28,548 nt of DNA, taken from positions 1 to 28,548 of the IMG/VR virus record IMGVR_UViG_3300020416_000044. The stretch is one strand, 5' to 3'. This stretch comes from a virus. The notes below the pieces were generated by a model that made no database searches, was not told the origin of the DNA, and saw nothing but the letters and a program-made list of their open reading frames with translations. Below are positions 14,986 through 28,548 of this stretch, one piece after another. Every line of letters starts with the position of its first letter. Position 1 is the first letter of the stretch. Both the position numbers and the translations under genes were made by a program.

Positions 14986-15875
14986 CATTTGCAGAGGCAT
15001 TCGCAGACGCGAGAAAAAGATTAGGACCAGGTGGCGTATTTACCTACAAAGGTAAAAAGTATACGACCGATCGTGCTGATGATAAAGCAAAGACTGCCAA
15101 GAATAATGTAGAAAAGAAAATAGATGTTACTCCCGTTAAAAAACCTAAGACAGAAACAAAAAAAGAAAAAGAAGTAAAAGAAGTAAAACGAGAAAAAGAG
15201 TTTATTGAAGGTGAGGACGAACTATCGTTAGTTGACAAAGCTAAAAATCTTAAAGATAAAATACTTAGACCTAATATAAGGCAGTTTGCTTACGATGTGT
15301 TTGGAGGATCGGGTGACATAACTGAGGATGATTATGGTCCTGAGTATTTAGACGCAATGAGACAAGTGGCGCAAAACGTAATAGACAGAGGCGGCACTTC
15401 ATTAGAGTATGATGATTATGGTATTGATTCATTTGAGAAAGGTATATTCGAAAACATGTACGGCAGCGGTGCAGACCATGGAAAAATGTTCGATTTAAAA
15501 ACTCTTATTGGTGGTGGTAATTTAGTTGTTGAAGACGGAAATTTATATATTACAGATGATTATGATTTTAATGTGAACCATGATAAGTCTGGTGATCGTT
15601 ATACTCCAGGTGCAGGTATTCCTGAAAAATCTTTTAGTAATCTCCCTGGAATTCTTAGCACTATAGCAAATAGAGCTATTGATCCTTATGGAGATACAAG
15701 CGGCAGTGGAAGCATGATGGATGCTATTAGAACTGCAGCTGCTTACATAGGGTCTACTCAACAAGATCAAGATAAATCAAAAGCTAAAATTAATCTTGGA
15801 CCAGCATCTGACTTTTATAGTCAAGATCAACTAGCCGGTATCATGGGAACACAAGCAGCAAAGGATGTAACATAA
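14982..15875 (+). CDS. Unknown protein with FxEAFxxAR-type N-terminus (297 aa)
   Basis: I choose ATG 14982 because it overlaps the upstream stop as ATGA; an in-frame ATG at 14916 would lie inside the membrane-protein gene and add 22 unlikely residues. The N-terminus (FAEAFADARKRLGPGG, then FTYKGKKYTT) is a short motif that recurs at the ends of marine phage structural proteins. A strongly charged Lys/Glu linker follows (about 34-80, KETK-type), then a folded acidic part containing ITEDDYGPEYLDAMRQ and Gly/Asp-rich loops. I recognise no catalytic site. Between holin-like and endolysin genes it could be a virion or lysis accessory protein; the function is unknown. Confidence 0.6.
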   Translation: MTFAEAFADARKRLGPGGVFTYKGKKYTTDRADDKAKTAKNNVEKKIDVTPVKKPKTETKKEKEVKEVKREKEFIEGEDELSLVDKAKNLKDKILRPNIRQFAYDVFGGSGDITEDDYGPEYLDAMRQVAQNVIDRGGTSLEYDDYGIDSFEKGIFENMYGSGADHGKMFDLKTLIGGGNLVVEDGNLYITDDYDFNVNHDKSGDRYTPGAGIPEKSFSNLPGILSTIANRAIDPYGDTSGSGSMMDAIRTAAAYIGSTQQDQDKSKAKINLGPASDFYSQDQLAGIMGTQAAKDVT

Positions 15876-16336
15876 TGAAACTATCAAATAATTTTTCACT
15901 ATCAGAATTAACTAAATCTCAAACTGCAACGCGCAAAGGCATTAAGAATGAACCATCAACAGCGCACATAGAAAACCTTATTCACCTAGCGGAGTCCGTC
16001 CTGCAACCAGTGAGAGATCACTTTGGTAAACCGGTCATGATATCTTCAGGCTATCGTAGCCCAGCGCTGTGCGAAGCTATCGGATCTTCGTCTAAGTCAC
16101 AGCATGCCAGGGGTGAGGCAGCAGACTTCGAAATACACGGAGTTGACAACAAGGAGCTTGCAACGTGGATTAGTAAAAATACGGAATTTGACCAACTAAT
16201 TCTGGAGTTTTATAATGAAGGAGATCCAAATTCTGGATGGGTGCACTGTTCAGCGGTGATGGAAGAGCCAAGAAAACAATTGTTAAGAGCAAGCAAAGTA
16301 GAAGGCAGGACGAAATACGAAAATATAATTCTTTAG
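15875..16336 (+). CDS. Peptidase M15 family endolysin (D-Ala-type carboxypeptidase fold)
   Basis: This 153-aa protein starts with FSLSELTKSQTATR, as in M15A-like (Peptidase_M15_3) phage enzymes. It contains the SSGYRSPALC region (57-66), the zinc site SQHARGEAADFE (His77, Asp84) and the final zinc/catalytic part LILEFY (Glu111) and GWVHCS (His124). Together these fit the His-Asp-His zinc triad of D,D/L,D-carboxypeptidases that cleave peptide cross-bridges of peptidoglycan. The length is typical for a single-domain enzyme without a cell-wall binding domain. The start overlaps the upstream stop (TAATG). Its stop overlaps the stop of the opposite-strand helicase gene by 4 bases, so no terminator separates them. 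It likely drives host lysis and was not seen to have a signal peptide. Confidence 0.9.
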   Translation: MKLSNNFSLSELTKSQTATRKGIKNEPSTAHIENLIHLAESVLQPVRDHFGKPVMISSGYRSPALCEAIGSSSKSQHARGEAADFEIHGVDNKELATWISKNTEFDQLILEFYNEGDPNSGWVHCSAVMEEPRKQLLRASKVEGRTKYENIIL

Positions 16337-17781
16337 ATCCAGTCTTTGATATCTTCTCCCATAATTTCATTAGCTATATTTATTTTGTCCCTAAGTGATT
16401 TAACAATACGCTCATCTATAGTACCTTCAGCTATCAAGTCAACATAGGTTACACTGCCAGTCTGGCCGATACGATGTGCTCGATCTTCTGACTGTAGTCT
16501 TTTTTCAAGGTCGTAACTGTTAGAGTAGTATACTACCGTGTTAGCAGCAGTCAGGGTGATTCCATAGCCTCCAGTTTGAGCATTTCCTACGAAATAGCGT
16601 GTAGGGCCGTTTTTTTGCTGAAATAGAGCAATGTTGTCCTGCCGGAGGGTAGAGTCCACTGACCCGTGATATTCGACTGTAGAGGCCTCTCCGTAAGCTT
16701 TTTTTAAAGATTCGACTATATTTTTTATGTCCTCGACGTAGTTTGCCCAGATTATCACTTTGCCGTCGGTTTCATCCAATAGTTCCATTAGTGAATTAAT
16801 TCTGTTGTTTTTAAGATGTTTAATTGTGCCATCATCTGCCTTAAAATGACCACAAGTTATTTGATGCAATCTCATTAGCTGAGTCATGACGTTAACACTG
16901 GTCATCATTTCTCCACTGTCAAGCATGGCTAACGCCATCTCTTTCATTTGAGCATAAACTTTTTTCTGTTCAGGGGTTAGCTCTATCAATCTCTTCATGA
17001 ATACTTTTTCAGGCAGGTCTAAACATTCTTCTTTCAACACACGATATGAAAATTTATCTAGTAAAGTAGATAGCTCACCTAAACGCCTATAACTGCCAAC
17101 AATCTGAACTCTACGTCCACCAAAGTTTCTTTCAACCATGTGTGCGTATCGAGAGCGAAAGCTGTAATACGACTGATGACCCAAATGAGTATCATCCAAA
17201 AAGTCACACTGACTATACAAGTCTAGTGGTGATTTTGTTACGGGAGAGCCTGTTAATATTCTACGGTATTTCGCGAGATCCGCTATTGTTAATATATTTT
17301 TTGTTCGCTTTGCTGTCGGATTCTTGATTGTTGTAGATTCATCAATCCCTATTAAAGCTCTTCCAAGAAAAATGTTAAGGAAACTTCGTGCAAAGTCCAG
17401 TCCTTTATTTGTAGAAAATGCTTCTACGTTCATTATCAATATCTTAAGATCACCTTTATCGTCAAATAGTGTGTCAAGCTCCATCTGTTTTTTCCTTGTA
17501 ATGTTCGCTTCCCACAGAACTTTTGTACATTCTATGTGTTCTGGCATATGTGTAGGGAACTCAATGCTGTCCCAGTTTTTGTACACACCTTTGGGAGCCA
17601 CTATCAGTGCACCGCGAATTGCGCCTCTATCATAGAGCATAGCTATATTGTCAACGAGGACCTTGGATTTACCTGTACCCATCTCCATAAATAGAGCGTA
17701 AGTGTCTTGAGCCCACGATTTTTCCAATGCCTTGAGTTGATGCTCGTATGGCTTGGTCTTGAACTTATAATTTTTTATCAT
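16333..17781 (-). CDS. SNF2-type superfamily 2 DNA helicase/translocase
   Basis: The 482-aa protein holds all main SF2 motifs: a Q-motif-like YEHQLKALE (12-20), Walker A MGTGKS (34-39), the DEST box in place of DEAH (147-150), motif III LTGSPVTKSP (177-186), motif IV IIWANYVEDI (343-352) and motif VI EDRAHRIGQTG (432-442), the RAHRIGQ form being diagnostic of SNF2-like enzymes. Such phage proteins remodel DNA at forks or remove bound proteins; they are compact, and this one lacks extra domains. It is the only minus-strand gene, transcribed from the control region at 17799-17835. The ATG at 17781 has only a weak AAGAAAG ahead of it. It converges with the endolysin gene. Confidence 0.9.
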   Translation of the reverse strand: MIKNYKFKTKPYEHQLKALEKSWAQDTYALFMEMGTGKSKVLVDNIAMLYDRGAIRGALIVAPKGVYKNWDSIEFPTHMPEHIECTKVLWEANITRKKQMELDTLFDDKGDLKILIMNVEAFSTNKGLDFARSFLNIFLGRALIGIDESTTIKNPTAKRTKNILTIADLAKYRRILTGSPVTKSPLDLYSQCDFLDDTHLGHQSYYSFRSRYAHMVERNFGGRRVQIVGSYRRLGELSTLLDKFSYRVLKEECLDLPEKVFMKRLIELTPEQKKVYAQMKEMALAMLDSGEMMTSVNVMTQLMRLHQITCGHFKADDGTIKHLKNNRINSLMELLDETDGKVIIWANYVEDIKNIVESLKKAYGEASTVEYHGSVDSTLRQDNIALFQQKNGPTRYFVGNAQTGGYGITLTAANTVVYYSNSYDLEKRLQSEDRAHRIGQTGSVTYVDLIAEGTIDERIVKSLRDKINIANEIMGEDIKDWI

Positions 17782-17798
17782 ATTTTAATTTTTCTTTC

Positions 17799-17835
17799 TT
17801 GACATTTATATAATCATGACTATCTTGAATGTCAA
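17799..17835. promoter_or_regulatory. Bidirectional promoter with nested palindromes
   Basis: Two sigma70-type promoters face each other. Plus strand: TTGACA (17799-17804), 16-bp spacer, TATCTT (17821-17826), leading to a start near 17833. Minus strand: TTGACA (17835-17830), 17-bp spacer, TATATA (17812-17807), leading to a start near 17800. The two -35 boxes extend to a perfect 8-bp inverted repeat TTGACATT / AATGTCAA. Between them lies the near-palindrome ATAATCATGACTAT (17810-17823, 6 of 7 pairs) with almost the same centre. The geometry means polymerase on one promoter should block the other, and a dimeric repressor could bind the inner site. An alternative plus-strand -10 (TATAAT 17809-17814) has only a poor -35. 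Confidence 0.65.
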
Positions 17836-17852
17836 CATATAAGAAAGCGATT

Positions 17853-18278
17853 ATGAGAAATAAATTATTTGAGTTGTATAGACCAAAACAATTACAGGAA
17901 TTTCTAGAATTTAATAAAGAAAATCCTAAAGAAGATTTTGTGTACGTATTACAACACCCACCAAGAAATATTAATATACTGACAGCATCTGATTTTGGAT
18001 ACCTGGTTATTTGTTTACCAGAAAATTCTCAAATGATGTTTAGTCCAGCACCCTTTATACATAAAATGAGAAAGAATTTACGAGATTTCAAAGAAACAGA
18101 CTACATCCTTTGTACAGGTGATCCTGCTATAATAGGATTATCAACAGCAATTGTAAGTGATATTACACAAGGAAAGTTTAATCTTTTGAAATGGGACAGA
18201 CAGGAAACAAGATACTATCCGCTGTCTTTTAATTTATATGATAAAGGAGAAATTGATGGGAACATTAACACTAGATGA
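17853..18278 (+). CDS. Conserved-type phage protein of unknown function (141 aa)
   Basis: The ATG at 17853 is chosen because it has an AAGAAAG site 5 bases upstream and lies downstream of the predicted transcription start. The ATG at 17829 overlaps the promoter itself. The protein has conserved-looking segments LTASDFGYLVICLPENSQ, FSPAPFIHKMRKNLRDF and LCTGDPAIIGLSTAI, alternating hydrophobic strands with conserved Gly/Pro/Asp; this resembles an unnamed family at the start of replication operons in marine phages. The C-terminus WDRQETRYYPLSFNLY also looks ordered. No catalytic motif can be assigned. It is first in the early operon, so it may act early, for example in takeover or regulation; that is inference. 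The next start lies inside its 3' end. Confidence 0.65.
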   Translation: MRNKLFELYRPKQLQEFLEFNKENPKEDFVYVLQHPPRNINILTASDFGYLVICLPENSQMMFSPAPFIHKMRKNLRDFKETDYILCTGDPAIIGLSTAIVSDITQGKFNLLKWDRQETRYYPLSFNLYDKGEIDGNINTR

Positions 18279-18813
18279 TCTAGAAATAGATCAACAAGAA
18301 ATAATTGAGAAAACAGATATATCAACGCTGTCTCGTTATTGTCTGATGCTACAAGATTTAGAAGATAAAATATCAAATGCAGAAGACAATGTTAAAAAAC
18401 TAAAAGAAGAGGCAGACAAAATTTCTTCAGAGATAATACCAAACCTTCTCGCAGAGCAGGGGTTATCATCTTTGAAATTAGCTGACGGCAGTGGAGTTGA
18501 GGTTAAAAAATCCTACAGCTGTACTGTTAAAAAAGACAACATAGAGTCAGCTTACAAATGGCTTCGAGAAAACGGACTAGGTGACATCATTAAAAACGAA
18601 GTTGCTGTAACGTTCGGTAAAGGCGAAGATAACAAGGCGGAGCAGTTGCTCAACCTTGCAGTGCAAGAAGGTTATGAGCCTCAACAAAAATCAAAAGTTG
18701 AACCCATGACTTTGAAGGCACTCTTTAGAGAGCGTGTCGAGGCCGGCCTCGACATGCCCTCGGATTCTTTTAACACTTTTGTTAAGGATCAAACTAAAAT
18801 TAGCCGGAAATAA
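18256..18813 (+). CDS. Coiled-coil replication-region protein (185 aa)
   Basis: I choose ATG 18256 over 18238 because AAGGAG lies 6 bases before it. The product has a long charged helix (about 25-60, LEDKISNAEDNVKKLKEEAD) likely to form a coiled coil. It then has a conserved-looking domain with LSSLKLADGSGVEVKKSY and a C-terminal segment VEPMTLKALFRERVEAGLDM that also looks conserved. Proteins with this arrangement are common in marine phage replication operons and are usually called hypothetical; the length and coiled-coil start recall Gam-like DNA-end protection proteins, but I cannot confirm this. It sits directly before the SSB-like gene. The start overlaps the upstream gene by 23 bases. 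Confidence 0.65.
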   Translation: MGTLTLDDLEIDQQEIIEKTDISTLSRYCLMLQDLEDKISNAEDNVKKLKEEADKISSEIIPNLLAEQGLSSLKLADGSGVEVKKSYSCTVKKDNIESAYKWLRENGLGDIIKNEVAVTFGKGEDNKAEQLLNLAVQEGYEPQQKSKVEPMTLKALFRERVEAGLDMPSDSFNTFVKDQTKISRK

Positions 18814-18840
18814 AGAATCATGAATCAAGAAGGAGGAAAC

Positions 18841-19602
18841 ATGAACCAAGTAGCGAAAAAAGAAAAGTCAGACATAGCTCTAGCAGGTATGTTTGAAGAA
18901 GACAAAGCTGGTGGTATGGACCAAATGGGGCAGGGCGATTTTGCAATGCCTTTTTTGCGTGTACTAGGCCAGCTATCACCCGAGATAAACAAACGGGACG
19001 CCAAGTATATAGAGAATGCAGAGGCAGGTATGATATTCAATACCGTGACTAAGCAGGTATACGATGGTGAGAAAGGACTCAACGTAATTCCTTGCGGTTA
19101 TAAGCGAGAGTATGTTGAGTGGAGTGATAGAGGAGAGGGCACAAGTGCTCCTGTCGCTATCCACCCAGTTAGCAGTGGTATTATAAAAGATACTACTAGA
19201 GGTGCTGACTATAAAGATAGATTACCTAATGGTAACTATCTTGAAAACACGGCCTCTTACTTCGTGTTGACAGAAGATATGCAACAAGCATTGATTACTA
19301 TGAAGTCAACACAACTGAAAGTAAGTAGATCATGGAACTCGATGATGAACACAATCAAGCTGAAAGGCAAGAATGGAATGTTCACACCGGCTTCTTATAG
19401 TCACGTGTATAATCTAAGCACTGTACAACAATCAAACGATAAGGGGACTTGGTTTGGTTGGAACGTACAAAAGATTGGTCCCGTACAGGACAAAGGTTTG
19501 TACGAGGCTGCAAAACAATTTGCTGGTAGTGTGTCTACGACTACGGTAAATCACGGTGAGACTGATACTAAATCTAAAGATACAGATTCAGTACCATTTT
19601 AA
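18841..19602 (+). CDS. Single-stranded DNA-binding-like protein
   Basis: The start at 18841 follows an AAGGAGG site; an in-frame ATG at 18820 would make the site coding. The 253-aa protein ends in a Ser/Asp/Thr-rich acidic tail closing with DTDSVPF, like the D-D-D-I-P-F tail of bacterial SSB that docks replication partners. The body has alternating strands and aromatics (YKREYVEWSDRGEG, YFVLTEDMQQALITMK, GTWFGWNVQKIGP) compatible with an OB-type fold. It lies in the replication operon between a coiled-coil protein and the primase gene. A strong terminator follows the stop. Identification rests on the tail and the neighbourhood, not on a recognised domain. Confidence 0.6.
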   Translation: MNQVAKKEKSDIALAGMFEEDKAGGMDQMGQGDFAMPFLRVLGQLSPEINKRDAKYIENAEAGMIFNTVTKQVYDGEKGLNVIPCGYKREYVEWSDRGEGTSAPVAIHPVSSGIIKDTTRGADYKDRLPNGNYLENTASYFVLTEDMQQALITMKSTQLKVSRSWNSMMNTIKLKGKNGMFTPASYSHVYNLSTVQQSNDKGTWFGWNVQKIGPVQDKGLYEAAKQFAGSVSTTTVNHGETDTKSKDTDSVPF

Positions 19603-19610
19603 CTGTTGAC

Positions 19611-19654
19611 ATCACGGGACTTGTTTTAGTTATTTCCAAGTCCCGTGATTTTTT
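19611..19654 (+). terminator. Intrinsic (rho-independent) terminator after the SSB-like gene
   Basis: A perfect 13-bp stem, ATCACGGGACTTG (19611-19623) with CAAGTCCCGTGAT (19637-19649), has a 13-base loop and is followed by a T run (19649-19654). It lies 8 bases after the upstream stop and ends 12 bases before the next ATG. It may reduce expression of the downstream primase genes relative to SSB. Confidence 0.9.
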
Positions 19655-19666
19655 AGAAAGGAAAAT

Positions 19667-19888
19667 ATGAAAGATAGAACATACTATCATAAAAAATATT
19701 ATAGGGTAAGAAGTTTAAAAAAACTTAGGGCTAGAGTAAAGAGTTTAGAAAGTACTTTACAAATGTTTAAGAATAGTCCAGAAGGTGAAGCTTATTTTAA
19801 AAGAAAAAATAAGGAGTATCAGAAAGAATACAGAGAGAAAAACTTAGAAAGAATACAGGAATACAGAAAAAACTATGCAACGCTTTAA
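19667..19888 (+). CDS. Small highly charged helical protein
   Basis: The 73-aa product is rich in Lys, Arg, Glu and Tyr (KEYQKEYREKNLERIQEYRK), predicted as one long helix or coiled coil. A strong AAAGGA site lies 5 bases before the ATG and the end overlaps the primase start by 14 bases. The charged repeat resembles tails of HNH endonucleases and DNA-binding proteins, so a DNA- or RNA-binding role is possible. I see no domain that identifies it. It is the first gene after the terminator, in front of the primase. Confidence 0.55.
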   Translation: MKDRTYYHKKYYRVRSLKKLRARVKSLESTLQMFKNSPEGEAYFKRKNKEYQKEYREKNLERIQEYRKNYATL

Positions 19889-21395
19889 AGATATATTTGA
19901 GGGAAACAACAGCGCCTATGGCCAATTAATTTTATCTGGCGCAACTACAGACAAGGGTAAGGCTGAAGGTAAAGCTTTTATCAAACGACAATCTATAACA
20001 GATGACTTATGGAAGGAACACCTTGAAGGAAAAGATCCTGCACTTGGTGTTATACCTATTAACGAAGATAATATGTGTAAGTGGGGTTGTATTGATGTTG
20101 ACGAATACAATCTAGATCATCTTGTGATTATGAGAAATATTAAAGGTATGGGTTTTCCTTTGGTAACTTTTAGATCAAAGTCTGGAGGAGCACATTTATT
20201 TTTATTTGCTAAAGATTTCATACCAGCTTCACTGATGCAATCTAAACTTAAAGCAATGTCAGAGGCTTTAGGTTATGGAGGCAGTGAGATCTTTCCAAAA
20301 CAAACTGAAATATTAACTGAGCGTGGGGACACAGGAAACTTTTTAAATTTACCATACCATGGTGGAACTAGAGGTTTGCGTTATACATTTAAAGCAGGCG
20401 GTCAGGCTGCAAAATTAGAAGAGTTTTATGATATATACGAGGAATGGGTACAGACACGAGAGCAAATAGAATCAATAGTTGTAAAGAAAGCAGAGGTTAT
20501 AGAAATATTTCCTGATGGACCACCTTGTTTAAATAAACTAGCGGACGAAGGTTTTGGTGAAGGCTCCAGGAATAATGGTTTGTTTAATGTTGGTGTATAT
20601 AGAAAAAAATCTAATCCAGATAACTGGGAGGATATGCTCGTAGCAGATAATCAAAGTGTTATGTCACCTCCACTTAGTAATTCAGAAGTTCAGTTGTTAA
20701 TCAAGTCACTTAATAGAAAAGGTTACGACAAATACAGATGTAAAGAACAACCTATTTGTGGTGTATGTAATCCTGCAAAATGTAGAACTAAAAAGTTTGG
20801 TGTTGGTTTTGATGAAGAACAAATGCCGGAACTGGATACGTTAACAAAAATAAAATCTACACCACCGCAGTGGTTTATTAATGTAGGTGGTAAAAGAGTA
20901 GAACTTAAAACAGAGCAACTACACAATCCTAATTTATTTGCGTTAGCTGTTTTAGATCAGGCAGATATAATGACACCTATACCAAAAGCAAAAGACTGGA
21001 GAGAGATATACGTTAGTCCTTTGTTGTCGAACCTACAAGAGATAGAACCATTAGAATCATTAGATCCTATAAATCAAATTATAAATCTATTGTATGACTT
21101 TACAGTGAACAGACCTGCTGCAAGAACAAAAGAAGACATGTTAAACAAAATGTCTTGGACCGATGAAGGTTTTACTTATTTTAGAATGGATGACTTTTAT
21201 TCTTTTTGCAAAAGAAACAATTGGGAGATGGACAAAATTAAGACAGGTAATCTTATGAAACAACTAGAAGATATTTTTGAAGATGAAATTAGAATGAACA
21301 TAAAAAATCAAACACCAAGAGTTATAAAAATAAAAGCAATGAAGAAAGATAAACCAGCATTGAGTAAAGTTAAATACGAAGAGGCGCCGTTCTAA
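19875..21395 (+). CDS. Archaeo-eukaryotic-type (AEP) DNA primase
   Basis: This 506-aa protein has the AEP active site pattern: CIDVDEYN (Asp74, Asp76), then TFRSKSGGAHLFLF (98-111, the S-x-H strand, His107) and EIFPKQTE (138-145). A C-terminal PriCT-like helical part follows (RNNGLFNVGVY, 232-242) with a four-cysteine zinc site (C289, C295, C298, C303), as in phage primases of this family. It makes primers for the family A polymerase encoded five genes away. The last residues KYEEAPF form a short acidic-aromatic tail like that of SSB. No ring helicase of the DnaB type is fused or adjacent. The start is weak in ribosome site but overlaps the upstream gene. Assignment to the AEP fold is fairly secure; primase rather than repair-type primase-polymerase is inference. 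Confidence 0.8.
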   Translation: MQRFKDIFEGNNSAYGQLILSGATTDKGKAEGKAFIKRQSITDDLWKEHLEGKDPALGVIPINEDNMCKWGCIDVDEYNLDHLVIMRNIKGMGFPLVTFRSKSGGAHLFLFAKDFIPASLMQSKLKAMSEALGYGGSEIFPKQTEILTERGDTGNFLNLPYHGGTRGLRYTFKAGGQAAKLEEFYDIYEEWVQTREQIESIVVKKAEVIEIFPDGPPCLNKLADEGFGEGSRNNGLFNVGVYRKKSNPDNWEDMLVADNQSVMSPPLSNSEVQLLIKSLNRKGYDKYRCKEQPICGVCNPAKCRTKKFGVGFDEEQMPELDTLTKIKSTPPQWFINVGGKRVELKTEQLHNPNLFALAVLDQADIMTPIPKAKDWREIYVSPLLSNLQEIEPLESLDPINQIINLLYDFTVNRPAARTKEDMLNKMSWTDEGFTYFRMDDFYSFCKRNNWEMDKIKTGNLMKQLEDIFEDEIRMNIKNQTPRVIKIKAMKKDKPALSKVKYEEAPF

Positions 21396-22906
21396 TGAAA
21401 ACAATAATACTAGGACCACCAGGAACAGGAAAGACAACTACCCTTTTAGATTTAGTTGAAGATTTTTTACGAGCTGGGACAGACATAAAAAAGATAGGTT
21501 ATTTTTCTTTTACAAAGAAAGCTGCATGGGAGGCAACTCACAGAGCAGAGGAAAAATTTATGATTGATCAGAAAGAGATACCTTTTTTTAGAACGCTTCA
21601 CTCTCTTGCTTTTAGGACACTAGGAATAAACAAAGAAAAGATGATGAAACATTCTGACTATAGAGACTTTGGTTTGAAGTGTGGCATACCGATTAAGAGC
21701 GCTTGGAACAGTGACGAAGATGGTGTGTTCAATTCTGACAATGAGTATCTTAGAATTATAAATAAAGCTAGAGTTCAGGAGATCCCAGTGTTAGATGAGT
21801 ATGATAAGAATAGACATGGCCTGGACATAGAGCGAGATCTATTATATCTTTTAGATCAAGAACTTATTAGGTATAAAAAAGAAAAAGGACTTTTAGATTA
21901 CAATGACTTACTCGAAGATTTTATTAGACAAGATGTATCGCCATCTTTCGACGTATTATTTATTGACGAAGCACAGGACCTCTCACCTTTGCAGTGGAGA
22001 ATGGTCAGGTCTTTATGGGCGAAAGCAGACAAAACCTACATTGCAGGGGATGATGATCAAGCAATATTTAAATGGGCTGGCGCTGACGTTGATACTTTTA
22101 TCGCACTTAAAGAAGAAGTAGATTACATCGACACACTAGATCAATCATACCGAATACCTGGTGGGCCAATACACGACTTATCACAAAAAATAATTAGAAA
22201 TGTTTCTAACAGATACGACAAGGATTACATGCCTAGACAAGAGGTGGGTGATCTTACAAGATACTCTGACGTTACACAGGTAGACATGTCACACGGAGAG
22301 TGGTTGGTTCTATCTTCTGCAAATTATTTTCTAGATGACATAAAGGAATTTTGTGAACTACAGGGTTGGTACTACTCACATAAAACAAAGAACTCTGTCA
22401 AACTAGATTTACTTCTTGCAATACAAACTTGGGAAAAATGGCGGAGAGTCGAGCATTTATTACCTGTTGCATCAATAAAAAATATTTACTCTTATCTTGG
22501 TGACAATGTAACCAAAGGTTATCGCACTGGTAAAACGATGGATGAAAACGAGGATGGTTATTACATAGAAGAATGTATAAATAATCATGGACTACAAACT
22601 GAAGATGTTTGGTACAAAGCGTTTGCAGGTTTGGATACCAACACAGAAAATTACATAAGAAATATGTTATCTAATAATGAAAAGATAACACAAACACCAA
22701 GAATAACATTATCTACAATACACGCTTCGAAAGGGGGTGAAGCTGACAATGTACTCATTCTTCCTGATATTACTAAGTCTGCTGTGGACAACAACGATGT
22801 TGATCCAGATGAACTACACAGGTTATTTTATGTAGCAGTAACCCGTGCAAGAAAATCGCTACACATTTTAGAACCAAGAAACTATGAAAGGGCATACGTA
22901 CTATGA
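21395..22906 (+). CDS. UvrD/Rep-like superfamily 1 DNA helicase
   Basis: The 503-aa protein carries the SF1A motifs in order: Walker A GPPGTGKT (7-14), Ia FSFTKKAA (37-44), Walker B FIDEAQD (189-195), motif III AGDDDQAIFKW (217-227), motif IV LDQSYRIP (248-255), motif V LSTIHASKGGEADNV (about 440-455) and motif VI VAVTRAR (480-486). It should unwind DNA 3'-5' at the fork or during recombination. At 503 residues it lacks the long 1B/2B insertions of UvrD. It may be the main replicative helicase, since no DnaB-like gene is visible in the window; that is inferred. The start overlaps the primase stop (TAATG) and the end overlaps the HNH gene start (ATGA). Confidence 0.92.
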   Translation: MKTIILGPPGTGKTTTLLDLVEDFLRAGTDIKKIGYFSFTKKAAWEATHRAEEKFMIDQKEIPFFRTLHSLAFRTLGINKEKMMKHSDYRDFGLKCGIPIKSAWNSDEDGVFNSDNEYLRIINKARVQEIPVLDEYDKNRHGLDIERDLLYLLDQELIRYKKEKGLLDYNDLLEDFIRQDVSPSFDVLFIDEAQDLSPLQWRMVRSLWAKADKTYIAGDDDQAIFKWAGADVDTFIALKEEVDYIDTLDQSYRIPGGPIHDLSQKIIRNVSNRYDKDYMPRQEVGDLTRYSDVTQVDMSHGEWLVLSSANYFLDDIKEFCELQGWYYSHKTKNSVKLDLLLAIQTWEKWRRVEHLLPVASIKNIYSYLGDNVTKGYRTGKTMDENEDGYYIEECINNHGLQTEDVWYKAFAGLDTNTENYIRNMLSNNEKITQTPRITLSTIHASKGGEADNVLILPDITKSAVDNNDVDPDELHRLFYVAVTRARKSLHILEPRNYERAYVL

Positions 22907-23595
22907 AACATCAATCTTCTTCAAAAAGATTAGATCCAGAACAGTGGGATCGAATAGACAGATGGAGAGCGAAAGGTTGGAGCTATAAAAACTTAGCTGC
23001 AAAATTTAATATAAGTAAAGGAACACTTTCCTACCGTTATGGAAAAGACCAAAAAGAAAAAACTCAGGAGAGAATGAGAAAATGGAGAGATCCTTGGCAA
23101 TCAAAGTTAAACCAGTTTTTTGATAGAACTATAGATCAAAAAAGAAACCCTAAACTTATAAATAAAAGACCAGAAAGAACCTGGGATTGTAAGGTAAGGG
23201 CATTTCATAAAGACAAAAACAACTCAACGAAAGGATTAGATATGAGAACTAGAAGAGATGAAATGAATGAACACATATGGCCAAACAAAGGTGAAGACAA
23301 AAATGGTTTGTCTTTTCCTTACGCGTCATGTGCTATTACAGGAAAGAAGGTTTCTGTTATGGAAGCAAAAGGGCATCCATTAGCTGCAAATCTTGATCAC
23401 GAAATTCCTGTTGCAAGAGGTGGTAGAAACGAACTATCCAATGCACAATTATTAAAAGAAAGAATAAATAGTATGAAGGGCGACATGACTAATGAAGAAT
23501 TTTTTGATGAGATTTTTGATGTAGTCAATGGCGATGCTTTTACTAAATACATAGAGAAGGTAAAAAAATGTCAGATCCGTATAAAACACAAGTAG
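22903..23595 (+). CDS. HNH endonuclease with N-terminal helix-turn-helix
   Basis: The 230-aa protein starts with a probable HTH (WSYKNLAAKFNISKGTLSYR, 26-45). It ends with an HNH part: CAITGKKVSV (143-152), DHEIPVARGG (165-174), Asn180 and Asn189 (LSNAQLL...N). The DH pair (Asp165, His166) and the later Asn residues fit the HNH metal site. Only one cysteine (Cys143) replaces the usual CxxC pair, so the zinc knuckle may be reduced. It lies inside the replication operon with ATGA overlap, as mobile homing-type or phage-exclusion HNH enzymes often do. It may be a free-standing homing endonuclease or a packaging-associated nuclease. Target site unknown. Confidence 0.75.
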   Translation: MKHQSSSKRLDPEQWDRIDRWRAKGWSYKNLAAKFNISKGTLSYRYGKDQKEKTQERMRKWRDPWQSKLNQFFDRTIDQKRNPKLINKRPERTWDCKVRAFHKDKNNSTKGLDMRTRRDEMNEHIWPNKGEDKNGLSFPYASCAITGKKVSVMEAKGHPLAANLDHEIPVARGGRNELSNAQLLKERINSMKGDMTNEEFFDEIFDVVNGDAFTKYIEKVKKCQIRIKHK

Positions 23596-23777
23596 GTGGT
23601 GATCACTACACTAAGTATGTGATACAGCCCAGCGAATTCGTCAATAAAAACAGGTTGTTATTCGCCGAAGGGTCTGCTATAAAGTATATAGTTAGACATC
23701 AAGATAAGGGAGGCAAAGAGAGCCTCGAGAAAGCGAAACATTTTATCGATATGATAATCGAAAGAGATTACAGTTGA
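23568..23777 (+). CDS. DUF3310 (SaV-like) protein, nucleotide-kinase related
   Basis: This 69-aa protein has GGDHYTKYVIQPSEFV (10-25), GSAIKYIVRHQDKGG (35-49) and an EKAKHFIDMII helix, the typical pattern of DUF3310. In T7 the related domain is part of the nucleotide kinase gp1.7, so a role in nucleotide supply is plausible. The start overlaps the HNH gene end by 28 bases and the stop overlaps the polymerase start as TTGA. Functional transfer from T7 is uncertain because this is the short, single-domain version. Confidence 0.8.
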   Translation: MSDPYKTQVGGDHYTKYVIQPSEFVNKNRLLFAEGSAIKYIVRHQDKGGKESLEKAKHFIDMIIERDYS

Positions 23778-25630
23778 GAACACTACAACAACCATTGTTT
23801 ACACCAGAAACTGAATGGGTTCCACCAGACAGATTACCGGATTTATCTAGTCATAGTGAAATTGCTATTGACCTAGAAACAAGAGATCCAAACCTGATAA
23901 CTTTAGGATCGGGTGCGGTTAGAGGAGACGGGGAGATAGTCGGCATAGCCGTTGCGGTCGAAGGCTGGTCCGGCTATTTCCCTATCGCGCATGAAGGTGG
24001 TGGGAACATGGATCGAGGATTAGTTCTGGATTGGTTTGAAGAATTATTATCCAACACAGCTACAAAAATATTTCACAATGCGATGTATGATGTGTCTTGG
24101 ATTAGATCACTTGGCTTTCACATTAATGGTGGCATCATTGATACAATGATTGCTGCAAGTTTAATTGATGAGAATAGATTTAGTTACACATTAGATTCTG
24201 TTGGTAAAGATTATATCAATATGCGCAAGAACGAAAAGCTTTTACAAGAAGCTGCAAAAGATTTTGGTGTCAATCCTAAAGCAGAGATGTGGAGATTACC
24301 TGCACCGTTTGTTGGCGAGTATGCAGAGAAAGACGCGGAGATGACATTGAAGTTGTGGCACGCGTTGCAACACGAGATATCAAAACAAGATCTGTGGGAC
24401 GTGTTTAATTTAGAAACTAATTTGTTTCCATGTTTAGTAGATATGAAATTTAAAGGTGTACGAGTTGACATAGCTAAAGCATCTGCTGTCAAAGAACAAT
24501 TGATTGTAACGGAGAAAAATTTATTACACGATATTAAAAAGATAACAGGGTTTGATGTAGAGATATGGGCTGCTGCATCTATAGCAAAAGCGTTTGAAAA
24601 AATAAAACTACCGTACGACAGGACAGAAAAAGGAGCACCATCTTTTACAAAAAATTTCCTGGCAACTCATCCTGCTGAGTTACCAAAATTAATTAATCAA
24701 GCAAGAGAGATCAACAAAGCAAACACAACTTTTATTGATACAATACTGAAACACGAACACAAAGGTAGGATACACGCAGAGATAAATCAAATAAGATCTG
24801 ACCAAGGCGGCACGGTTACAGGTAGGTTTAGTTATAATAATCCTAATCTTCAACAGATACCTGCACGACACAAGGAACTTGGACCGTTGATTAGAAGTTT
24901 GTTTATACCAGAAGAGAAACACACTTGGGGTTGTTTTGACTACAGCCAACAGGAGCCAAGAATTTTAGTTCACTTCGCTTCTCTTATGCGTATGGAAGGA
25001 ACACAAACTATTGTAGATGCTTACAATGATGGCAGCGCAGACTTTCACCAGATGATAGCTGACATGGCCGGTATCAATCGTAAACAAGCAAAGACAATTA
25101 ATCTTGGTATAATGTATGGCATGGGCAAGAATAAGCTTATGGCAGAGCTAGGTTTGATGAAGGACGCGGCAGAAAAACTACTCAAGACTTATCATCAGAA
25201 GGCACCTTTTGTTAAAATGTTATCAGAGGCTGTAGCTAGAAGAGCAGATGACAGTGGTAAAATACGTACAATTGGTGGTAGACTATGTCATTTTGATATG
25301 TGGGAGCCGCATGGTTTTGGTATCAAGAAACCACTGAAACACGCAGAGGCACTCAGGGAGCATGGACCGGGGATCAAGCGGGCGTTTACATACAAAGCAT
25401 TAAATAAATTAATACAAGGATCAGCAGCTGACATGACAAAAAAATCTATGTTAGCGTTGTATCAGGAAGGAGTTATACCCCATGTACAAATACATGATGA
25501 ATTGGATATCTCAGTACAAACAGGAGAAGAAGCAGAAAAAATTATTAGAATCATGGAAGAGGCTGTATCGTTACAAGTTCCCAACAAAGTAGACTATGAA
25601 AAAGGAGATAGCTGGGGTGACATACAGTAA
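23774..25630 (+). CDS. polA: Family A DNA polymerase with 3'-5' exonuclease
   Basis: A TTG start (23774) overlaps the DUF3310 stop (TTGA); no better start is seen before the exonuclease domain. Exonuclease motifs: AIDLETRD (Asp33, Glu35), IFHNAMYD (99-106, Asp106) and YAEKDAEMT (183-191, Asp187). Polymerase motifs: A FDYSQQEPR (388-396, Asp389), B RKQAKTINLGIMYG (436-449, Arg436, Lys440, Leu444, Tyr448), C HDELD (574-578, Asp575). All catalytic residues look intact. Leu444 lies where E. coli Pol I has Phe762; Leu is less common and discriminates phage groups. At 618 aa there is no 5' nuclease domain. It copies the phage genome together with the primase and SSB-like proteins encoded upstream. 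Confidence 0.95.
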   Translation: MRTLQQPLFTPETEWVPPDRLPDLSSHSEIAIDLETRDPNLITLGSGAVRGDGEIVGIAVAVEGWSGYFPIAHEGGGNMDRGLVLDWFEELLSNTATKIFHNAMYDVSWIRSLGFHINGGIIDTMIAASLIDENRFSYTLDSVGKDYINMRKNEKLLQEAAKDFGVNPKAEMWRLPAPFVGEYAEKDAEMTLKLWHALQHEISKQDLWDVFNLETNLFPCLVDMKFKGVRVDIAKASAVKEQLIVTEKNLLHDIKKITGFDVEIWAAASIAKAFEKIKLPYDRTEKGAPSFTKNFLATHPAELPKLINQAREINKANTTFIDTILKHEHKGRIHAEINQIRSDQGGTVTGRFSYNNPNLQQIPARHKELGPLIRSLFIPEEKHTWGCFDYSQQEPRILVHFASLMRMEGTQTIVDAYNDGSADFHQMIADMAGINRKQAKTINLGIMYGMGKNKLMAELGLMKDAAEKLLKTYHQKAPFVKMLSEAVARRADDSGKIRTIGGRLCHFDMWEPHGFGIKKPLKHAEALREHGPGIKRAFTYKALNKLIQGSAADMTKKSMLALYQEGVIPHVQIHDELDISVQTGEEAEKIIRIMEEAVSLQVPNKVDYEKGDSWGDIQ

Positions 25631-25817
25631 CGATAGTCCTGTTGAGATTACTTTGGGAGTTTGCGATCAATGTGAAAACTATGTTCCTTTTGTTAGATTA
25701 GTAGCAGAAGAAAGAGTTTATCAATGTTTGACGTGTAAAACTAAACATGTGCAACATGTCAATGGCAAAGTTACTTTTAATTATTTAGAAGATAGTTATG
25801 TTTTTAAAAGAAATTAG
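25617..25817 (+). CDS. Small zinc-ribbon protein downstream of DNA polymerase
   Basis: I prefer a GTG at 25617 because GGAG lies 9 bases upstream; an ATG at 25596 (73 aa) lies deeper in the polymerase gene and has no clear site. The protein has CDQC (Cys16, Cys19) and CLTC (Cys37, Cys40), a plausible zinc ribbon, then TKHVQHVNGKVTF. The size and fold suggest a nucleic-acid-binding accessory protein; function is unknown. It overlaps the polymerase gene by 14 bases. Its TAG lies at the base of a GC-rich hairpin. Confidence 0.65.
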   Translation: MTYSNDSPVEITLGVCDQCENYVPFVRLVAEERVYQCLTCKTKHVQHVNGKVTFNYLEDSYVFKRN

Positions 25818-25853
25818 TGCCGGCAGTTAATGAGTAAAGGGGCCTGCCGACAC
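25817..25853 (+). other. GC-rich hairpin at the end of the replication operon
   Basis: GTGCCGGCAG (25817-25826) pairs with CTGCCGACAC (25844-25853) in 9 of 10 positions, with a 17-base loop; the left arm includes the perfect palindrome TGCCGGCA. No T run follows, so a classical intrinsic terminator is not shown. It may be an mRNA 3'-end stabiliser, an RNase processing site or a weak terminator. Confidence 0.6.
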
Positions 25854-25898
25854 CTGATGTAGTGAGAAATTATATATAAAATAAATTAAAATAAACTA

Positions 25899-25928
25899 TT
25901 GTCAAATATAATAATTGCTCTATATAAT
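25899..25928 (+). promoter_or_regulatory. Sigma70-like promoter for the RHH operon
   Basis: TTGTCA (25899-25904) and TATAAT (25923-25928) are separated by 18 bp and lie 31 bp before the ATG of the ribbon-helix-helix gene. The surrounding 140-bp intergenic stretch is extremely AT-rich. It is the only sizeable gap in the right half, which makes a promoter here plausible. Confidence 0.6.
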
Positions 25929-25938
25929 CCCATATAAT
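25906..25938 (+). repeat. Three direct ATATAAT repeats in the promoter
   Basis: ATATAAT occurs at 25906-25912, 25922-25928 and 25932-25938. The spacings are 16 and 10 bases (start to start). They could be alternative -10 boxes or binding sites for the small regulator encoded immediately downstream. High local AT content means chance is not excluded. Confidence 0.5.
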
Positions 25939-25958
25939 AACACAACAAAGGAAAGAAA

Positions 25959-26138
25959 ATGCCAGATATAAGTAAATTTAAATCAGTGTCTGTATCTATG
26001 GATACACACAATAAACTAATGAGTTTAGCTCAAAAAAGATTTGAGGTACCTGTTAGTGTACAGAAAGTAATAGAGTTTTTATTAGAGAAAGAGATGAAAA
26101 AGAAAAATGGTAGATCTAACGGGCGAGCACGAGGTTAA
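25959..26138 (+). CDS. Ribbon-helix-helix (Arc/CopG-like) regulator (59 aa)
   Basis: The 59-aa product starts after an AAAGGAAAG site. It has the RHH layout: a short beta strand (KFKSVSVSM, 6-14), helix 1 (DTHNKLMSLAQKRF, 15-28), turn (EVPVS, 29-33), helix 2 (VQKVIEFLLEKEM, 34-46) and a basic tail. RHH proteins bind DNA as dimers through the paired strands and usually repress their own promoter. The AT-rich promoter with three ATATAAT copies just upstream is a natural candidate operator, and the palindromes at 17799-17835 are another. The 3' end overlaps the next gene by 32 bases. Identification comes from sequence pattern without a search. Confidence 0.7.
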   Translation: MPDISKFKSVSVSMDTHNKLMSLAQKRFEVPVSVQKVIEFLLEKEMKKKNGRSNGRARG

Positions 26139-26325
26139 GGCTATATGCCCACGTTGCGCAGGCAATGGCTATATAGTTATACAAAGTGAGTTTGTACGCA
26201 GGCAGGAATTTAATTGTCCCCAGTGTGACTGTGAAGGATGGGTTATGTTACCTGCAAATCAATGTAGAGAAAACGTTGAGGGCGGAATAGAACCAAGATG
26301 GATGAAGACAGGAGAAACAATCTAA
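26107..26325 (+). CDS. DnaJ-type zinc-finger small protein
   Basis: This 72-aa protein contains CPRCAGNGY (Cys14, Cys17) and CPQCDCEGW (Cys37, Cys40), the CxxCxGxG pairing of the DnaJ cysteine-rich domain. There is no J domain and a single pair set, so it cannot be a full chaperone. Phage proteins of this type are common and their job is not settled; they may bind unfolded protein or assist assembly. It starts inside the RHH gene and its stop overlaps the next ATG (TAATG). Confidence 0.7.
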   Translation: MVDLTGEHEVKAICPRCAGNGYIVIQSEFVRRQEFNCPQCDCEGWVMLPANQCRENVEGGIEPRWMKTGETI

Positions 26326-27008
26326 TGGAAGATCTTGAACATATTAAATATGCAAAAAATGTTTTAAGTCAAAGAGACTTTGAAGAACTGCAAGAGTATA
26401 TTGGTGATGATGTAGATTATTGGCCATCCTATAATTTTAAACCTAAAGATGTTCCTCCTAGAAACAAAATTGAAAAAGCTATTGTTAAGTTAATTGGACA
26501 AGACAATCACGTTGAGTATTGGATAAGGAACCCTAGAGGACAAGAACCAACTTTATGGCACGTAGATGCTAACGAGTTGTTTATGAAAAAATATATAAGT
26601 GAAAATGATAGTCCTGAAGAACCTCAATTTGCTAGACAGTTTCCATTAAACACACATATTTTATACATTTCTGTTGATCCTAAAATGGAAGGTGGTGAGT
26701 TGTTAATACTACCTAACAATACATATGTAGAAGGAAGACCGATTAATGATACAAACTATCAACCCATGGATTCAAGCAGAATGCTTATTGTAAAGCCAAA
26801 AGAAAATCATTTAGTGTTTTTCAACAAACCAATTTATCATGCAACAAATGAATATAAAAACATAGATCCGTTAAGAAGAGATTTTAGAGTAAGTTTAATG
26901 TTTTCTTCTTGGGACTATATTCCAAAACCGTATGATGAATGGCACCATTGGAATAACCCCTGGGTGGGAATACCTGCTGAACAATTAAAATGGCCTAAAG
27001 GAGCATAA
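26325..27008 (+). CDS. 2-oxoglutarate/Fe(II)-dependent oxygenase
   Basis: I start at ATG 26325 (227 aa), which overlaps the upstream TAA and follows AGGAG; an in-frame ATG at 26298 lies inside the upstream gene. The iron site is WHVDANELF (His79, Asp81) and IYHATNEY (His172), with RRDFRVSLMFSSW (Arg188 in RVSL) as the likely 2-oxoglutarate anchor. The HxD...H...R order fits the double-stranded beta-helix fold of the prolyl-4-hydroxylase-like family. GGELLILPNNTYVEG (123-137) is the usual central strand pair. Such phage oxygenases may hydroxylate a protein or a nucleobase; the substrate is unknown. All metal residues look present, so activity is plausible. Confidence 0.8.
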   Translation: MEDLEHIKYAKNVLSQRDFEELQEYIGDDVDYWPSYNFKPKDVPPRNKIEKAIVKLIGQDNHVEYWIRNPRGQEPTLWHVDANELFMKKYISENDSPEEPQFARQFPLNTHILYISVDPKMEGGELLILPNNTYVEGRPINDTNYQPMDSSRMLIVKPKENHLVFFNKPIYHATNEYKNIDPLRRDFRVSLMFSSWDYIPKPYDEWHHWNNPWVGIPAEQLKWPKGA

Positions 27009-27010
27009 AT

Positions 27011-27226
27011 ATGAAAGATTTTAATATAAAAGTAAGCTGGTCTACCAACAATGTGTTGACGTGGATCATATTTTTAATATCAATAGGATTATTGATTGCA
27101 AATACAGTGACTACGTATACACTGTATAATGTTATTGAAACGATGTGGTTAGAGATACAACAGGTCAAAGAAACTAACATTTCTTTGTATCAATTTATCG
27201 AGGGACATCGAGATGACTTTAATTAA
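27011..27226 (+). CDS. Small single-span membrane protein
   Basis: The 71-aa protein has one strong membrane helix at about 15-40 (VLTWIIFLISIGLLIANTV), a short N-terminal part and a C-terminal amphipathic tail (ETMWLEIQQVKETN). An AAAGGAG site lies about 8 bases before the ATG. Holin-like or envelope-modifying functions are possible, but the early-region location argues against the late lysis cassette. No family is recognised. Confidence 0.6.
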   Translation: MKDFNIKVSWSTNNVLTWIIFLISIGLLIANTVTTYTLYNVIETMWLEIQQVKETNISLYQFIEGHRDDFN

Positions 27227-27236
27227 GGAGAACCGA

Positions 27237-27605
27237 GTGAGAAAAGAAATCCCTAACAGGATGATGTGTGCAACTTTCGCTATTCCAATAGACGGGCGTA
27301 GAGTAGTTGGCACATTAGATTATATTGCTAGCAAATCAGGTCTTACACCTATGGCCTTTTGGATTAAAATTAAACCAACAGATTCATATTTAGACAGGGA
27401 ACTTAGAGCATCGGGCAAACTAATATCAAGATGTTTACAACACGGTGAGTCCTTGAAAGATCTTGTAGACACACTATCTCAAGATAACATAGCGGGACAC
27501 ATGGCAAACTATTTACACAAAAACATGGAAGATATTATACTAGGAAAGCAACCGGATAAGAAACAGCGTATGCTATCAACTGATCCGTATGCTATGAAAG
27601 AATGA
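27237..27605 (+). CDS. Orphan TSCPD-domain protein (ribonucleotide reductase-related)
   Basis: I use the GTG at 27237 (122 aa): AAGGAG lies 6 bases upstream and it clears the upstream stop; ATG 27213 is the alternative. The core GTLDYIASKSGLTPMAFWI, followed by DRELRASGKLISRCLQHGE and SLKDLVDTLSQDN, matches the TSCPD pattern at the C-terminus of B12-dependent (class II, NrdJ) ribonucleotide reductases (a strand-rich part, then a helix with ISL-x-L-x-HG). No catalytic reductase domain is in the window. It may be a stand-alone accessory to a host or phage reductase. Assignment is moderate. Confidence 0.55.
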   Translation: MRKEIPNRMMCATFAIPIDGRRVVGTLDYIASKSGLTPMAFWIKIKPTDSYLDRELRASGKLISRCLQHGESLKDLVDTLSQDNIAGHMANYLHKNMEDIILGKQPDKKQRMLSTDPYAMKE

Positions 27606-27847
27606 TGGACGAGTTTGAGATAGATTGGATACCGGAGGAAATGGAAACACCAAAGAACATTCCTGGTGTTATCGATGCTTTGTCTGAAGTGCCTCCACAC
27701 ACAGTAGATAAATTATGTAAAGCTAAGTTTGGACACACGAATTGGGCAAGAATGGGTCAAATGTCACCAGAGGAATTGCTTGGTAATCCACACGAATTTG
27801 ACTACGAGAATGGAATAATATATTTTAAGAACTCACATTTAGTATAG
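27602..27847 (+). CDS. Unknown acidic small protein (81 aa)
   Basis: The ATG overlaps the upstream TGA (ATGA), consistent with the operon style. The protein is acidic at the N-terminus (MMDEFEIDWIPEEMETP), with SEVPPHTVDKLCKAKFG and FDYENGIIYFKNSHL. Nothing in it points to a known family. It ends 13 bases before the tail-fibre-like gene, at the boundary between early and virion-type genes. Confidence 0.6.
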   Translation: MMDEFEIDWIPEEMETPKNIPGVIDALSEVPPHTVDKLCKAKFGHTNWARMGQMSPEELLGNPHEFDYENGIIYFKNSHLV

Positions 27848-27860
27848 GAGAAAAATTTCA

Positions 27861-28505
27861 ATGACCCTTCCAACCAGCGGCCAAATTTCTTTGAATGACG
27901 TTAGAGCAGAATTTGGATCGCCTTCTAGTAATGTATCTATGAGTCAGTTTTATAGAGGGGGCAGTTTTGTTATTGCTGTTACTAAAAATAATAACATACC
28001 CACGTCAGGGCAGATATCTATGTCAAATTTTTATGGAGGTAGAAATAAAGGAGCATATGCTCAATTTACCGCTGGAACAGCTTCTACTGGTGGTAAGGCC
28101 CCTCAAACATTTGTTGGAATAGATAATGCAAACCTACATGGGACTGGAAACATTGGATCTTTTACTAGTCAAGGATTGGTGATTGGGCTCGGCGGTTCGG
28201 AGACTTCAACAAATTTAAGGGCTTGGTTAGTTGCAGGGTCAAGGTGCGATATGAGAGCAGATAACGCAAGCTCAGGATCACCAGTAAACCCCGCTTTGAT
28301 CTACAATCAAATATTCCAAGTTAATACTTCAACCTCGAGTTATTTGTTTGACAGACAATGGCCAGCTATTCCTAGCGCAGCTACAAATGGTCGTTTCTCT
28401 AGTGCTTTTACTGGAATGCCGGCTGGTCCCAGTCATAATGCATCTGTACCTATGGTTTCCGGTACATCATATGTTATGCAAATGGATAAGGGTAGTCACA
28501 TATAA
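27861..28505 (+). CDS. Tail/fibre-type protein with TSGQIS motifs
   Basis: After AGGAG, this 214-aa protein opens with LPTSGQISLNDVRAEFG and repeats IPTSGQISMSNFYGG (45-59), a pattern common at the N-terminus of marine phage tail and surface proteins. The rest is Ser/Thr/Gly/Asn-rich beta-type sequence. It marks a return to virion-type genes after the early region. Its stop overlaps the next start. I do not see a receptor-binding or enzymatic motif. The structural call is by motif and composition. Confidence 0.65.
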   Translation: MTLPTSGQISLNDVRAEFGSPSSNVSMSQFYRGGSFVIAVTKNNNIPTSGQISMSNFYGGRNKGAYAQFTAGTASTGGKAPQTFVGIDNANLHGTGNIGSFTSQGLVIGLGGSETSTNLRAWLVAGSRCDMRADNASSGSPVNPALIYNQIFQVNTSTSSYLFDRQWPAIPSAATNGRFSSAFTGMPAGPSHNASVPMVSGTSYVMQMDKGSHI

Positions 28506-28548
28506 TGTATAATATTACTTGGCAAAAAGAAATTGAAGACACTGGCGA
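28505..28548 (+). CDS. Start of an unknown gene cut by the window edge
   Basis: An ATG overlaps the upstream TAA (TAATG), and 14 codons stay open to the window end (MYNITWQKEIEDTG). Nothing can be said of its function; context suggests another tail-region gene. Confidence 0.5.
   Translation, partial: MYNITWQKEIEDTG

Follow-up and report, generated by a model that had tools for sequence, protein, structure and literature searches.

Two overlapping, opposite-facing promoters predicted within a 37-bp element conserved in relatives of HTVC023P-type pelagiphages

The short gap between a minus-strand helicase gene and a plus-strand replication operon in the virus record analysed here (the window, 28,548 bases) contains a perfect inverted repeat, raising the question of whether its symmetry marks the binding site of a dimeric repressor or has another cause. 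The preliminary description of this DNA put forward both a pair of facing promoters and a possible operator at this position. The nearest pelagiphages, by DNA and protein matches, were 023Pt_psg01 and HTVC027P (65.8% and 58.4% helicase identity), with more distant helicases in DSL-LC04 (52.9%) and HTVC023P (45.9%). Judged by these matches, the source of the window is a relative of HTVC023P-type pelagiphages, which are phages of SAR11.

The 37-bp element (17799-17835) lies in a 71-bp gap located 5' of both the SNF2-type helicase gene and the plus operon, which encompasses, in order, Pam3 gp32-, gp33- and gp34-like genes and genes for primase-like, UvrD-like helicase, HNH-endonuclease-like and family A DNA polymerase proteins. 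The listed plus-strand open reading frame starts at 17829, within the right arm of the element, but relatives share the start at 17853. In the window and in many relatives the divergent start codons are only ~70 bp apart, and both promoters would therefore have to sit in the gap. The helicase gene also overlaps a convergent plus-strand gene (15875-16336) by 4 bp (16333-16336), so that minus-strand transcripts begun at the element may extend into the plus-strand genes upstream as antisense RNA.

The preliminary description reported two facing TTGACA boxes 21 bp apart, each with a -10-like hexamer at 16-17 bp, and a 14-bp near-palindrome (ATAATCATGACTAT) at the centre, and the sequence bears out both observations (Table 1). 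The boxes belong to two outer arms, TTGACATT (17799-17806) and AATGTCAA (17828-17835), which form a perfect 8-bp inverted repeat with 21 bp between them. An exact TTGACA-TGTCAA pair at 30-45 bp occurs a single time in the window, compared to a mean of 0.07 in 100 dinucleotide shuffles. Six of the seven pairs match in the nested near-palindrome, the axis of which lies half a base off the axis of the arms. Both -10 boxes are off consensus in the window, and as assigned (17807-17812 and 17821-17826) they do not overlap, leaving no -10 bases common to both directions. The starts predicted from the -10 positions fall ~33 bp apart, each within the -35 box of the opposite promoter.

Table 1. Coordinates of the divergent gene pair and of the proposed signals between the two genes (positions in the window).
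Feature	Position	Strand	Remarks
SNF2-type helicase gene	16333..17781	-	proposed to be served by the minus promoter
Pam3_gp32-like gene, first of the plus operon	17853..18278	+	start revised from 17829
Pam3 gp33-like and gp34-like genes of the plus operon	18238..19602	+	
37-bp element, putative interlocked opposite-facing promoters	17799..17835	both	outer arms TTGACATT / AATGTCAA
-35 box TTGACA, predicted plus promoter	17799..17804	+	
-10 box TATCTT, predicted plus promoter	17821..17826	+	spacer 16; predicted start near 17833
-35 box TTGACA, predicted minus promoter	17830..17835	-	
-10-like box TATATA, predicted minus promoter	17807..17812	-	spacer 17; predicted start near 17800
Nested near-palindrome ATAATCATGACTAT	17810..17823	both	overlaps parts of both -10 boxes and the variable centre
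Shine-Dalgarno-like AGAAAG, predicted helicase leader	17794..17799	-	CTTTC conserved in relatives
Shine-Dalgarno-like AGAAAG, predicted plus leader	17842..17847	+	GAAAG conserved in relatives

A consensus promoter scan of positions 15000-28548 returned 40 matches, compared to 43.9 expected in shuffles, and the minus promoter was absent from the resulting list because its -10 box lacks the last T. Since the scan count was no better than that of shuffled sequence, a promoter match alone carries no weight here, and conservation must decide. Relatives were gathered for the helicase and for the gp32-like and gp34-like proteins, yielding 210 sequences, 158 of which contained the gp32-like gene as well as the start of the helicase; duplicate contigs were collapsed and distinct sequences counted. 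The arms were then searched for in 88 distinct helicase-upstream regions, allowing at most one mismatch per arm.

Both arms were identified in 83 of the 88 regions, the remaining five presenting none. The arm-to-arm length was 37 bp in 59 regions, 36 bp in 19 and 38 bp in two, with single instances of 40, 34 and 33 bp. Arms spaced at 36-37 bp with no more than one mismatch each were present in 78 of the 88 regions (1.15 in shuffles), and both arms were exact at this length in 52 (none in shuffles). This conservation stems in part from the search itself, which required the arms, and the inner columns hence provide a better test. Among 65 distinct 36- or 37-bp elements, a TA..T pattern, chosen after the columns had been inspected, was found at 16-17 bp from its own -35 box on both strands in 88%, compared to 2.4% when the inner bases were shuffled. 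The stricter TA...T pattern at the same distance was present in 63% of these elements on the plus strand and in 17% on the minus strand; the value for both strands together was only 12%, because the minus -10 box seldom ends in T. Alternative -10 boxes may lie at 18-19 bp.

A tree of 56 helicase rows, all with elements of 37 bp, was used to count by parsimony the changes undergone by each column. On average, -35 columns changed ~1 time, -10 columns ~7 times and other inner columns ~12 times, and the centre of the inner palindrome was among the most variable stretches, with 16 changes in column 17 and 20 in column 20. The conserved features, as read from these columns, are two -35 and two -10 boxes, and the nested palindrome is best described as facing parts of the -10 boxes around a variable centre. 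Of the two palindromes, the outer arms are conserved in related phages, in the 78 regions noted above, and the inner centre is not.

The flanks of the element presented a matching arrangement. Of 83 regions, 81 contained CTTTC between the element and the helicase gene (15% in shuffles) and 71 contained GAAAG within 35 nt past the element (19% in shuffles). On either side, a Shine-Dalgarno-like AGAAAG separates the predicted start from its gene, a pattern expected of paired start signals. In many relatives (e.g. L018, L036, L039 and L167) an extra open reading frame of ~45 codons heads the plus operon shortly after the element, and L092 has a different small open reading frame at this place. 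The element is undisturbed in relatives with a small open reading frame inserted in the plus leader.

Beyond this set, the element was observed at 37 bp, counted by eye, in 023Pt_psg01. The preliminary description had named related phages that keep the genes and lose the palindromes as evidence against its proposal. This evidence was found in part: HTVC027P, HTVC023P and DSL-LC04 keep the divergent gene pair and lack the arms. The distant relatives L123, L125 and L128 presented the right arm only. A strict 37-bp pattern matched 24 stretches in viral_contigs, once in each and, judged by contig name, all on contigs already among the gathered relatives, and returned no matches in genome_contigs. 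On this distribution, the element is a feature of one clade and not of the whole family.

Judged by its sequence, its conservation and its constant placement with respect to both genes, the element most probably comprises two complete, overlapping promoters of the sigma-70 type, used by the host RNA polymerase and directed oppositely from the same 37 bp. This upholds the original proposal of promoter-like elements facing across each other, one serving the minus-strand helicase and the other the plus operon, as both motifs are conserved in relatives. The -35 boxes would occupy the outer edges, each -10 box would fall within the spacer of the opposite promoter and each start within the opposite -35 box. 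The arms would then be symmetric because both ends are -35 boxes, and the length would be held near 37 bp because an inner insertion or deletion alters the spacer or the -10 box of at least one promoter. With the length fixed by promoter spacers, no dimeric protein would be needed to account for it.

The symmetry of the arms is nonetheless perfect, as would be expected if they and the inner palindrome made up an operator at which a dimeric repressor, encoded by phage or host, shut both promoters together. In a count that ignored relatedness, columns 7 and 31 were paired in 0.70 of elements, compared to 0.53 expected (p 0.006), and several inner pairs behaved similarly. The tree-based count removed this signal: columns 7 and 31 presented one joint change, compared to 0.9 expected, and no pair of the outer register was clearly above expectation, the lowest p value being 0.068 for columns 14 and 24. 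Joint change in the two symmetric registers (0.023 and 0.028) did not exceed that of other column pairs (0.030). The inner pair formed by columns 13 and 24 reached a p value of 0.038 as one of twelve tested, and the palindrome centre (columns 17 and 20) is variable. A repressor operator was hence rejected as the cause of the symmetry, and we consider such a site improbable. The dimeric repressor of the preliminary description finds no support at these palindromes, where the arms coincide with two -35 boxes, the inner centre varies and symmetric positions do not change together.

It could also be argued that only one of the two promoters works and that the remaining -35-like arm is a regulator site or a relic. 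The missing last T of the minus -10 box and the retention of the right arm alone in L123, L125 and L128 would fit this explanation, but both genes need a promoter within the ~70-bp gap and both TTGACA boxes are conserved together with both -10-like motifs, making a lone promoter an unlikely arrangement. The location of the element at the head of an operon of replication genes might likewise suggest an element of a replication origin, or a structural DNA signal of another sort. Against this, the element is present in a single copy in the window, its conserved columns are accounted for by promoter anatomy and the cumulative GC skew, a weak test, rises on both sides, with a slight dip only over the minus-strand helicase gene; we regard an origin as very improbable.

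The preliminary description had pointed to the protein encoded at 25959, labelled as ribbon-helix-helix, as a possible ligand of the element. This protein is conserved in relatives (14 aligned) and returned no Pfam or PHROG match at an E value of 0.001. Only weak, unrelated matches were obtained, and Pfam, PHROGs and PDB sequences lend the ribbon-helix-helix label no support, although such searches can miss a short protein. Upstream of its gene lies a motif of ~55 bases (25887-25941), common to most relatives and very strongly conserved across 38 distinct aligned sites. The motif contains a TTGTCA -35 box, a TATAAT -10 box and the near-palindrome CAAATATAATATTTG between them, and it includes TATATAATCCCATATAATA with two -10-like boxes; it would seem more constrained than a plain promoter needs. 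In a scan of the window with its 19-base core, the site of the 25959 gene scored 29.5, compared to -9.3 for the divergent element, which ranked 215th. The 25959 protein was hence discarded as the ligand of the element, since the element differs from the motif conserved 5' of the gene for this protein. Should the protein act as a repressor, the promoter of its own gene would be the better candidate target. An imperfect hairpin (GTGCCGGCAG...CTGCCGACAC) is also present at 25819-25861, slightly upstream of this conserved promoter.

A separate feature was observed 3' of the gp34-like gene, where most relatives present a hairpin (19611-19655 in the window). Stems of at least 10 pairs were found in 64% of 118 distinct regions, compared to 1.4% in shuffles. 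The stems vary, with 33 distinct 5' stems among the 60 hairpins with a C-run loop, and the loop is kept: CCCCC was present in 71 of the 118 regions, GGGAGACT or GCGAGAGT in 21 and both in one. The version in the window is terminator-like, with a T run. The hairpin may act as a protein-bound RNA element, and this exchange of stems around a retained loop may be more unusual than the promoter pair. Another possible promoter, suggested by a TTGACA at 19606, was rejected, given that just 17 of 119 regions contain TTGAC within 85 nt past the gp34-like gene. An Rfam search of the window returned no matches.

Returning to the two overlapping promoters, one would direct transcription of the minus-strand helicase gene and the other that of the plus-strand replication operon. 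If both are real and both fire, their overlap would render them mutually exclusive, because each polymerase would cover the promoter of the other and, once bound in one direction, would block the opposite one. HTVC027P carries no RNA polymerase gene and is described as dependent on that of the host for the whole of infection (PMC12753301). The consensus -35 boxes could favour higher occupancy, with the off-consensus -10 boxes working against it. It is conceivable, if rather doubtful, that the orientation of the polymerase itself provides either/or control between helicase and replication operon in these abundant pelagiphages, with no repressor involved.

For SAR11 phages, the analysis provides a conserved promoter anatomy, and it illustrates that a striking palindrome can be merely two facing -35 boxes. 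In addition, the 65 distinct natural variants constitute a series for measuring polymerase competition at fully overlapping promoters. A literature search by title found no report of this element. The word 'promoter' does not appear in the main text of PMC12753301, and neither 'promoter' nor 'palindrom' appears in that of the paper on HTVC023P-type genomes (PMC9599517).

Arrangements of divergent promoters that overlap are already known, and the phage element fits this broad kind. The bacterial bidirectional promoters described by Warman, Grainger and co-workers (PMC12825309, PMC10268837) resemble it in their pseudo-symmetric DNA, bound by polymerase in either orientation, in that one binding event prevents the other, and in their frequent location between divergent genes. 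For five such promoters of E. coli, a group that includes bioA/bioB, basal activity is reported to be too low for competition, though either direction could be repressed when the opposite one was activated (PMC12825309). The two directions of this class share a -10 element, and their starts are separated by 7-25 bp, most often 18 (PMC10268837). In plasmid pLS20, a conjugative plasmid, overlapping divergent promoters are described as a genetic switch involving DNA looping (PMC4207663).

The phage element is similar to pLS20 in its overlapping divergent promoters, and differs from it in that no regulator or loop was found. Unlike the bidirectional class, it presents two separate -10 boxes, and hence not the shared -10 feature, together with two consensus -35 boxes and predicted starts ~33 bp apart. 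In E. coli bioA/bioB and in tetA/tetR, two full face-to-face promoters cross between divergent genes, and a known repressor binds at the overlap. The phage element resembles these systems in its putative crossing of full promoters and differs from them in that no repressor was identified. By this comparison of promoter layout, it is closer to the classical face-to-face promoters than to the class with a shared -10 element.
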